This document shows, in pieces, positions 59,960 to 64,000 of a DNA stretch of 64,000 nt. The notes beneath the pieces are model-generated. The model did no database searches. It was not told the origin of the DNA and worked only from the letters and a program-made list of their open reading frames with translations. Numbering within the stretch: the stretch's first letter is position 1; each line of letters opens with the position of its first letter. Made by a program: the position numbers and the translations under genes. The DNA comes from Actinotalea endophytica (GTDB lineage: Bacteria; Actinomycetota; Actinomycetes; Actinomycetales; Cellulomonadaceae): NCBI RefSeq assembly GCF_025717005.1, contig NZ_JAOVZU010000003.1, forward strand, positions 281,761-345,760, read 5' to 3'.

Positions 59960-61159
59960 TCAGGCCACCCAGGCCCCGGCACGCATCACCCGACGCGGAC
60001 GCAGCTCCTCGTCGACGACGACGAGGTCTGCCCGCCGACCCGCGGCCAGGCTCCCGACGTCCCCACGGCCGAGCACCTGCGCCGGCGTGCTCGACGCGGC
60101 GTGCACCGCCTCGGCGAGCGGGACGCCCGCCGCCACCGTCGTCCGGACCACGTCGAGCAGGTGCGACGTGCCCCCAGCGATCGCACCGCCGCGCACCAGG
60201 CGGGACACCCCGTCGGTGACCTGCACCCGGGCCGGACCCAGCAGGTAGAACCCGTCCGGCATCCCGGCGCCGGCCATCGCGTCGGTCACCAGGGCGATGC
60301 CCTGGGCACCCACGAGGTCGAACACCATCCGGATCACCTCGGACGTGAGGTGCACCCCGTCGGCGATGAGCTCGACCACCACCTCGCCGCGCCGGGCAGC
60401 GGTGAGCAGCACCGGGATCGGTCCGGGGTCGCGGTGGTGCAGCGGACGCATGCCGTTGAACACGTGGGTCGCCACCGGGCGCCGGCCGCGCGGGCCGCCG
60501 GCCAGCAGGCGCCGCGCCTCCTCCACCGCCCGGGCGACCTGAGGGGCCGACGCGTCGGTGTGGCCGAACGACGGCACCGCACCTTCCGCCACCACGGCGG
60601 CGAGGACGCCGTCGAGCACCCCCGGCACCTCGGGCGCGACCGTCACCCCGATGAGTCCGCCGTCCGCGGCGTCGGCGAGCGCGGTGACGAGTGCCGGGTC
60701 GCCGGCCACCATGTGCTCGGCGGACTGCGCGCCGCACCGGGCCGGCGCCAGGAACGGGCCTTCGACGTGGATGCCCGCCAGGTCCCCGTCCGCGACCAGC
60801 GTCGCGAGCAGCGCGGTCTGCTCGACCAGCCGCTCGCGGGGGGCGGTGACCAGGGACGCGACGAGCGTCGTCGTGCCGTGCGCCAGGTGCTCGCGGGCAG
60901 CCGTGCGCGCCTGCTCGGGCCCGGGCGCGTCCGGGAAGCTCTCGCCGCCACCGCCGTGGCAGTGCAGGTCGATCAGCCCGGGGAGGATGGTCGAGTCGGG
61001 TGGGGCGGCGTCCGGCATCGCCGCCAGCTCCGGCGGCGCGTCGGCGACGGCACCCACCCAGACGACCGTGTCCGCGTCGACCACCACGAGGCCGCCGGGG
61101 AGCTCACCGTGCTCGGTCACGACGCGACCACGCAGAGCAGTCCCGGACGCCGTCGTCAT
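59960..61159 (-). CDS. nagA: N-acetylglucosamine-6-phosphate deacetylase
   Basis: A 399-residue amidohydrolase that deacetylates GlcNAc-6-phosphate in amino-sugar and wall recycling. The metal motif is GLIDLHCHGGGGESF, the next landmarks are GIHVEGPFLAPARCGAQSAEH and THVFNGMRPLHHRDPG, and the catalytic aspartate lies in LVTDAMAGAGMPDG. The ATG at 61159 follows CAGGAT by 6 bases. No nagB or GlcNAc transporter is adjacent; a beta-glucosidase lies upstream. Confidence 0.92.
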   Translation of the reverse strand: MTTASGTALRGRVVTEHGELPGGLVVVDADTVVWVGAVADAPPELAAMPDAAPPDSTILPGLIDLHCHGGGGESFPDAPGPEQARTAAREHLAHGTTTLVASLVTAPRERLVEQTALLATLVADGDLAGIHVEGPFLAPARCGAQSAEHMVAGDPALVTALADAADGGLIGVTVAPEVPGVLDGVLAAVVAEGAVPSFGHTDASAPQVARAVEEARRLLAGGPRGRRPVATHVFNGMRPLHHRDPGPIPVLLTAARRGEVVVELIADGVHLTSEVIRMVFDLVGAQGIALVTDAMAGAGMPDGFYLLGPARVQVTDGVSRLVRGGAIAGGTSHLLDVVRTTVAAGVPLAEAVHAASSTPAQVLGRGDVGSLAAGRRADLVVVDEELRPRRVMRAGAWVA

Positions 61160-61165
61160 CGCCCC

Positions 61166-61171
61166 ATCCTG
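61166..61171 (-). promoter_or_regulatory. Leaderless -10 box for nagA
   Basis: CAGGAT on the minus strand, 6 bases before the ATG at 61159. Confidence 0.4.
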
Positions 61172-61267
61172 GCATCGCGGCGTCCGGCGCGGGAGTGCGC
61201 CGCGCAGGGTGTCTCCGCCCGGCTCCACCCGCGACGGGCCTCGTCCGGACCGTGCGCGGTCGGGCGT

Positions 61268-62743: not shown

Positions 62744-63421
62744 TCAGGGTGCCAGACGTTCGACCACCCAGCCGTGCCCGAGCGGGCGGTAGCGCACGCG
62801 ATCGTGCAGGCGATCCCGGCGCCCCTGCCACAGCTCGACGGTGCCGAGCGCGAGGCGGTAGCCGGTCCAGTGCTCCGGCATCGGCACGTCCTCTCCGGCG
62901 AACCGGCGCTCCGCCGCGGCGTAGTCCGCCTCGAGCTCGGCGCGGGACGCCACCACGGCCGACTGATCGCTCGCCCATGCGGCCAGCTGGCTGCCACGCG
63001 GGCGGCTCGCGAAGTAGGCCGCGACCTCCGCACGGCTCACCGGGGTCACCGCGCCGCGCACGATCGCCTGGCGGTCCATCGCGTGCCAGACGAACACTGC
63101 GGCCGCTTCGGGGTGCACCGCGAGCTGCCGCCCCTTCGCGGAGCGCACCTGGGTGTAGAAGACCAGGCCTCGCTCGTCGATCCCCTTGCAGAGCACGGTC
63201 CGGGCCGCCGGGGCGCCGTCGGCGTCCACCGTGGCCAGCACCATCGCGTTCGGCTCCACGAGCCCCGCGTCCTGAGCGTCGTCGAGCCACCTGCGGAGCT
63301 GGGCGACCGGGTCCGGGTCGACGTCGGCCGGGTCGAGCGTCCCGAGGACGTAGCTGCGCCGCAACGCGGCGAGCCGGTCGACCGGGCGGGGGTCGGGGGT
63401 CTGCGGCGCAAGCGGCTCCAT
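62744..63421 (-). CDS. pdxH: Pyridoxamine 5'-phosphate oxidase
   Basis: A 225-residue FMN flavoprotein that oxidises pyridoxine or pyridoxamine phosphate to PLP. The landmarks are LRRSYVLGTLDPADVDPDPV, MVLATVDADGAPAARTVLCKG, the FMN segment SAKGRQLAVHPEAAAVFVW, and the closing WVVERLAP. The ATG at 63421 gives the family N-terminus and follows AAGGAT by 6 bases. Together with YggS at the left end it concerns vitamin B6, but the two are 62 kb apart. Confidence 0.92.
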   Translation of the reverse strand: MEPLAPQTPDPRPVDRLAALRRSYVLGTLDPADVDPDPVAQLRRWLDDAQDAGLVEPNAMVLATVDADGAPAARTVLCKGIDERGLVFYTQVRSAKGRQLAVHPEAAAVFVWHAMDRQAIVRGAVTPVSRAEVAAYFASRPRGSQLAAWASDQSAVVASRAELEADYAAAERRFAGEDVPMPEHWTGYRLALGTVELWQGRRDRLHDRVRYRPLGHGWVVERLAP

Positions 63422-63544: not shown

Positions 63545-63578
63545 GACCGCGCCCTATTCCGGACGAAAGGAACATCAC

Positions 63579-63875
63579 ATGCGAAAGCGCGCCATCGCCC
63601 TGCTCACCGGAGCGGCGCTCACGATCGGTTCGGTCGCGCTCGCCGGGCCCGCGGCCGCGGCGAGCGACGTGCAGTGCGCGTCTGCCGTGGGCAGCGGCTC
63701 TGCGTTCTCCTACCGATACATCAACGTGAAGAACTCGTGCAGCCGCACCATCACGGTCAGGCTCGACATCGCGAACGCCAACGACTCGGGCTGCTATGCG
63801 ATCTCGGCGAACTCCACGGAGCAGCTCCGATACAACCGCCTCTGGGGCACCTTCAGGTCGATCAAGGACTGCTGA
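63579..63875 (+). CDS. Secreted four-cysteine protein resembling the alpha-amylase inhibitor tendamistat
   Basis: A 98-residue preprotein. The signal peptide ends around A28 (GPAAAA), leaving a ~70-residue mature protein with cysteines at 33, 54, 72 and 98. Tendamistat (mature 74 residues) has cysteines at 11, 27, 45 and 73. The middle spacing is 18 in both. SYRY-x4-N-x-C here matches SWRY-x4-N-x-C there, so the inhibitory Trp-Arg-Tyr triad reads Tyr45-Arg46-Tyr47; the C-x3-[IV]TV pattern and C-Y-A-[IV] also agree. Inhibitor function is inferred, not shown. ATG at 63579 has GAAAGGA upstream. The gene lies 57 bases before the low-complexity end. Confidence 0.7.
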   Translation: MRKRAIALLTGAALTIGSVALAGPAAAASDVQCASAVGSGSAFSYRYINVKNSCSRTITVRLDIANANDSGCYAISANSTEQLRYNRLWGTFRSIKDC

Positions 63876-63930
63876 CCTGCGAGCGCTCGCGACCCTGGCC
63901 AGGCCGCGATGCGTGAGGCACCCAGGCGTG

Positions 63931-64000
63931 GGGGGGGGGGCGGGGGGGGGCGGCGGGGCCCCCCCCCCCGGGGGGGGGCGGGGGGGGGGGCGGGCGGGGG
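63931..64000. other. G/C homopolymer at the contig end, probable artefact
   Basis: The last ~70 bases consist almost only of runs of G and C, with up to ten or more identical bases in a row. Nothing like this occurs elsewhere in the window. It resembles poly-G read-through from two-colour sequencing chemistry or an assembly-tip error and should not be read as biology. Confidence 0.8.

Follow-up and report, generated by a model that had tools for sequence, protein, structure and literature searches.

Does a small secreted-looking protein that carries Tyr-Arg-Tyr where tendamistat has Trp-Arg-Tyr (WRY) still belong with the alpha-amylase inhibitors? The question is raised by a gene near the end of a 64,000-nucleotide stretch of Actinotalea endophytica DNA (contig NZ_JAOVZU010000003.1, positions 281,761 to 345,760; the whole stretch is called the window here). 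The gene occupies 63579..63875 on the plus strand with its stop codon (open reading frame, ORF, 63579-63872), and the ORF, a Pfam match and a protein-database label all indicate a 98-residue tendamistat-family protein. By profile comparison, the window protein is homologous to the wide-sense members of PF01356 (A_amylase_inhib) beyond what shuffled sequence gives; judged by its motif, it does not count as an amylase inhibitor of the tendamistat type. The original prediction described a tendamistat-like protein with one altered triad residue, which is not the best reading, because the best scores are with a branch of relatives without WRY (the WRY-less branch), where similar cysteine spacings are common. 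Its further suggestion of a divergent family was borne out; this branch is large.

Cysteine pattern and homology

The cysteines of the window protein are residues 33, 54, 72 and 98, with a spacing of 21/18/26. Y47 of the S-Y-R-Y motif lies seven residues N-terminal to C54, and YAI directly follows C72; the four cysteines, the 18-residue central spacing, SYRY and CYAI were thus correctly predicted. A profile (A1) of the window protein and two Streptomyces relatives retrieved 38 tendamistat-type proteins, all with a spacing of 16/18/27 (WRY in 36, RRY in 2), and one further tendamistat-type locus (L060) has 16/18/28. The predicted differences of 21 against 16 and of 26 against 28 therefore stand; the last spacing is 27 in the 38 proteins and 28 at L060. 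The RRY carriers (P0038 and P0039, both from Streptomyces) are a natural test of the need for Trp.

Scoring profiles were built without the window protein from 103 database rows, 116 WRY-less rows (which include a few copies), 115 of these (L038 removed), 40 tendamistat-clade rows and all 156 rows. For each profile, 50,000 free and 50,000 cysteine-fixed shuffles of the window protein served as controls. The window protein scored 30.8 bits with the database rows, 44.7 with the WRY-less rows, 41.4 without L038, and 43.6 with all 156 rows, for which the best of the 50,000 cysteine-fixed shuffles reached 23.2. No shuffle of either kind equalled the window protein with any of these four profiles (best 23.7 with those of WRY-less relatives). 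The predicted homology to tendamistat is thus upheld by the profile and shuffle tests.

The structure prediction is consistent with this result. AlphaFold2, given a family alignment that included tendamistat-type rows, produced a confident six-stranded fold (strands at residues 34-42, 45-52, 58-65, 72-75, 80-85 and 91-97) for the mature four-cysteine domain (71 residues, 63660..63872, plus strand, as are all parts of the gene below). Its best PDB match in Foldseek was tendamistat, as the original prediction had anticipated, and the second was parvulustat (PDB 2ker). The window protein is accordingly a predicted six-stranded beta-sandwich. With both a profile and a structural match obtained, the outcome that was to refute the original prediction did not arise. 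The disulfides are presumably paired 1-2 and 3-4, as in tendamistat. The first cysteine pair, C33 to C54 (63675..63740), spans the first beta-hairpin, which has five more residues than its counterpart in the 38 tendamistat-type proteins; C72 to C98 (63792..63872, spacing 26) would form the second disulfide loop, a pairing also taken from tendamistat.

Several results are weaker or call for caution. The expected PF01356 match was obtained (PF01356.24, 22.4 bits, E 1.3e-4 over 24,736 models), yet it did not reach the curated cut-off of 25. With the 40-row tendamistat-clade profile the window protein scored 18.3 bits, and one of 50,000 cysteine-fixed shuffles was as high; with a profile of the 38 tendamistat-type proteins it scored 15.4 bits, exceeded by 2/50,000 free and 2/50,000 cysteine-fixed shuffles. 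The WRY-less relatives were collected by searches begun from the window protein, so that scores with profiles of these relatives are somewhat favoured. Moreover, a structure model from the single sequence neither matched tendamistat nor reproduced the six-stranded fold. In other searches, the window protein was found labelled PF01356.26 in the protein database (the cut-off of this label is not stated), NCBIfam gave no match over its cut-offs for the window protein or four full-length WRY-less relatives, and a PDB sequence search placed tendamistat second (E 0.051) behind a shark antibody domain (E 0.041), which is not evidence by itself.

The Pfam score under the cut-off might also be taken to mean that the resemblance arose by chance or that the ORF is spurious. 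In the same direction, a single-sequence search of 5.8 billion proteins at E 0.001, limited to shared five-residue words, returned only the window protein itself. Such a reading is highly improbable in view of the shuffle tests, and relatives with the same cysteine pattern turned up with the window sequence alone as query. The gene itself also argues against it: GC3 (GC content at third codon positions) is 0.909, near the 0.92-0.94 of five neighbour genes, and a ribosome-binding site (GAAAGGA, 63565..63571, by eye) lies seven bases 5' of the ATG. The ORF is a real gene. At 66.3 percent, its GC content is below the 73.5 percent of the window and ranks it among the lowest 1.7 percent of stretches of 297 bases. 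The gene showed neither a sigma-70-like promoter nor a terminator, an absence that carries little weight in such actinobacteria. The protein is likely secreted, judging from a signal peptide recognised by eye at residues 1-27 (63579..63659), with a basic start, a hydrophobic stretch and an AxA motif, and cleavage near AAA-ASDVQ.

Relatives without the triad

The mature window sequence was searched against 394 sampled genomes of the class, and gave five matches in four genomes (its own excluded). All are short and secreted-looking; four have cysteines at 20/18/26, 21/18/26 or 20/18/25, and the fifth (L038; genome G1071, contig C433) keeps only the first two. A profile of the window protein and four of these relatives (A7) was run against 296 genomes, of which 20 gave matches; the 29 matches comprise 20 WRY-less relatives, three of tendamistat type (L054, L057 and L060), the window gene and five unrelated matches (L055, L059, L061, L069 and L070), which were dropped. 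One match on the minus strand, L041, is a true family member. The 20 relatives and the window protein form the 21 rows without WRY of alignment A8.

The A8 profile retrieved 106 proteins from the protein database, the window protein included, and all are labelled PF01356.26. The named source organisms are mostly Nonomuraea, with Streptosporangium, Streptomyces, Kitasatospora and a handful of other genera; the annotation, where a name is given, is mostly 'hypothetical protein', with a few entries as 'Alpha amylase inhibitor'. Two WRY-less members are from outside the actinobacteria by source name, P0109 (Sorangium cellulosum) and P0135 (a cyanobacterial assembly). Against PF01356.24 itself, 13 of the 21 A8 rows match at E 0.01 or better, and the four full-length WRY-less relatives all fall below the cut-off (E 9.7e-4 to 0.045; for L040, FliC_D2 came first). 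The A8 profile matched tendamistat (E 1.9e-6) and parvulustat (E 6e-5) in the PDB, and aligned with the tendamistat profile A9 at E 4.4e-11. On these matches, this alignment and the PF01356 labels, the tendamistats and the WRY-less proteins are read as one superfamily.

Among 142 four-cysteine database rows, counting the window protein, the C2-C3 spacing is 18 in 141 (the search pattern prefers 18); the full spacing is 20/18/26 in 78 and 21/18/26 in 2. Across 34 WRY-less representatives, variability peaks in the hairpin, by a small margin, and hairpin length ranges from 16 to 21. An A-R-Y sequence occurs in the hairpin directly after C1, away from the triad columns, in 11 database rows.

Close relatives were sought without success in 98 other related genomes (E 0.001), in 395 further genomes sampled from the order (E 0.01), and in plasmids and phages (E 1). 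Several candidates were set aside: among the PF01356 matches under the cut-off, L004 is contained in a longer ORF of the opposite strand, and L003, L007 and L009 contain internal stop codons; the only locus from a genome-contig scan (L074, Streptomyces eurythermus) is an ORF of 358 residues that does not show the cysteine pattern. The frames at L008 (1300-1955, minus strand, genome G280) are apparent pieces of a tendamistat-type gene, which looks like a decayed copy and was used in no alignment or tree. Among the titles listed in literature searches on the tendamistat triad, on PF01356 and on tendamistat with Nonomuraea, and in broader ones, none is on WRY-less members.

Motif and phylogenetic placement

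Residues outside the triad also link the window protein to the WRY-less rows. D69 is common to the window protein and 116/116 WRY-less rows, and occurs in 7/40 tendamistat rows; at position 92 the window protein has F, which is F or Y in 115/116 WRY-less rows and V in 40/40 tendamistat rows. In place of the WRY triad the window protein has Tyr45-Arg46-Tyr47 (63711..63719, by sequence alignment), and its C1-C2 spacing is 21, not 16. Both triad residues that are invariant in 40/40 tendamistat-clade rows, R46 and Y47, are present; the clade invariants Y64, R73, T82, G86 and G88, outside the triad, are missing. Apart from the window protein, YRY stands at the triad columns in only 1/116 WRY-less rows, that of L038.

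A phylogenetic tree was built from 157 rows. Its 40 tendamistat rows grouped as one clade (support 100/98, branch length 2.43), and the window protein fell outside this clade, on a long branch with no resolved position. This tree took 13 of the 20 WRY-less loci (L048, L049, L050, L052, L058, L066 and L068 were left out), and P0134 and P0143 were omitted as they do not have four cysteines in the pattern. The window protein was also outside the tendamistat clade in a smaller tree of 48 of these rows; there, a topology that joins it with the tendamistats in one clade was not rejected (approximately unbiased test, p-AU 0.474). The deeper placement of the window protein exceeds what 69 alignment columns can give.

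Possible function

At about even confidence, the window protein may be a secreted inhibitor-like binder, in which the tip of the first hairpin plugs the active site of an enzyme other than an animal-type amylase. The protein would be exported, would adopt the predicted six-stranded fold with its two disulfides, and the fold might still serve inhibition. The hairpin tip would enter the active site of some enzyme outside the cell, and the longer, altered hairpin (SAFSYRY vs YQSWRY) might have shifted the target off animal-type alpha-amylase towards a hydrolase outside the cell that belongs to a competitor, to a host or to the producer. The variability of the WRY-less hairpin in sequence and length suggests such a binder with a changed tip. 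The different target raised in the original prediction is thus favoured, given the longer hairpin and the absence of an exact WRY.

The protein could instead still inhibit an alpha-amylase, with YRY in place of WRY and a salt bridge through Arg46, acting on an animal-type enzyme or on the producer's own starch enzyme. R46 and Y47, the RRY of the two Streptomyces proteins and the joint clade that was not rejected are in keeping with this, and a tendamistat-like inhibitor was modelled on Streptomyces pullulanases (PMC13240717). Furthermore, the genome contains 20 PF00128 matches in all to glycoside hydrolase family 13 (GH13), including a large protein on contig C19 (a 1946-residue open frame with Alpha-amylase and Alpha-amylase_C matches and, by eye, a signal peptide). 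A starch-related target could therefore be the true one. Continued amylase inhibition nevertheless seems quite unlikely: the hairpin is five residues longer, the five clade invariants are missing, and tendamistat binding takes four segments with 15 residues in contact (PMC10671682).

Another view is that the WRY-less proteins are not inhibitors at heart. They might bind a glycan, a wall polymer or a surface, or be small antibacterial or signal proteins, and amylase inhibition would have arisen once, in the tendamistat clade. That clade is indeed a single long branch amid many WRY-less lineages. Relatives are also present on three plasmid-filed records (one, of 11.8 Mb, looks like a chromosome), and on two of these, from Streptomyces (L071 691-3198 and L073 1956-4192), the relative is divergent beside two mutually related genes, an XRE regulator and a gene with the annotation 'peptidoglycan-binding protein', the product of which is similar to the regulator at its start. 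However, searches for this pair at the loci of eight other relatives (L072, L075-L081), at the tendamistat loci L011 and L012, and in the sequence that follows the window gene downstream (L010) were negative, nor did the WRY-less branch show a recognisable catalytic or binding motif. We consider this view somewhat doubtful. The defence or toxin role that was also proposed is unsupported: PADLOC gave no match for the window protein at E 0.1. PHROGs gave only a match at E 0.063, over residues 1-47, to a family of unknown function.

The inhibitor-like binder may belong to a broader picture, which is offered tentatively. Tendamistat would be a specialised twig of a large actinobacterial family of secreted miniproteins, in which the first hairpin was re-tooled by each lineage against different extracellular enzymes; the window gene would be a solitary recent addition, its Tyr-Arg-Tyr tip directed at a new enzyme. 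With 116 triad-less rows, either the Pfam name is misleading for many members, or a compact scaffold held by disulfides has been turned against other enzymes. The family around tendamistat is wide and little studied, and may be a general inhibitor scaffold. Both alternatives are cheap to test, and a familiar scaffold that yields new inhibitors would be practically useful.

Genomic context

The left neighbour of the window gene is the conserved, divergent pdxH (62744..63421, minus strand; pyridoxamine phosphate oxidase by Pfam). Past the window end, the contig continues with a G/C-only run, a 10-N gap, nucS and then, by eye, ATP synthase operon-like genes. The G/C-only run (63930-64000) and the 10 N (L010 762-771), shortly 3' of the window gene, look like an assembly artefact.

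In 18 other genomes of the genus, 15 loci with a pdxH orthologue were available (G005 and G009 had no match, and G013 only a distant paralogue). The pdxH-nucS spacing is 65-194 bp in 14 of them, and one holds a nagA-like gene; the lengths are approximate, since they were measured between tblastn ends. In the window's genome the junction is 692 bp, counting the N gap, and contains the window gene. The junction seems prone to change. Since it is short at 14 of the 15 other loci of the genus and 395 other sampled genomes of the order yielded no relative, the window gene is consistent with acquisition as a single gene, perhaps through transfer. The nagA-like gene in the other genome was recognised by eye (L017 2214-3464); the window's own nagA-like gene is at 59960-61228, beyond a GH1 (glycoside hydrolase family 1) gene.

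Comparison with known systems

Tendamistat inhibits amylase via the loop Y15-QSWRY20 (PMC9966187). According to PMC10671682, its triad sits in the catalytic site of the amylase, with a salt bridge between Arg19 and Glu230; the characterised members named in the same source are Streptomyces amylase inhibitors, two with picomolar Ki, and it says that tendamistat-type inhibitors bind Streptomyces amylases too. Action on prokaryotic amylases is described as little known in PMC13240717, a 2026 survey of 295 Streptomyces genomes that reported tendamistat homologues in 38 species at a cut-off of 1e-10. This cut-off would probably miss the WRY-less branch.

Like tendamistat (HOE 467A; PDB 1hoe, 1bvn), the window protein has four cysteines, a C2-C3 spacing of 18, x-R-Y before C2, CYA after C3 and, by prediction, the six-stranded fold. 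It differs in Tyr for Trp, in a hairpin with five more residues, and in the absence of Y64, R73, G86 and G88 of the tendamistat clade; from parvulustat (Z-2685, PDB 2ker), of the same fold family, it differs in the same way. The WRY-less PF01356 proteins of Nonomuraea, Streptosporangium, Kitasatospora and Streptomyces (P0040-P0144), together with L039, L040, L041 and L042, share with it a secreted-looking four-cysteine domain, D69, F/Y92 and the absence of WRY; they are its best profile match, with a spacing of mostly 20/18/26. The window protein is nevertheless distinct among them: its identity with the remaining 20 rows of A8 runs from 16 to 31 percent, and it has the YRY motif and a long lone branch. 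L038 has SYRYVTVKNNC where the window protein has SYRYINVKNSC, and the C1-C2 spacing is 21 in both; unlike the window protein, L038 is without the third and fourth cysteines and could form one disulfide only.
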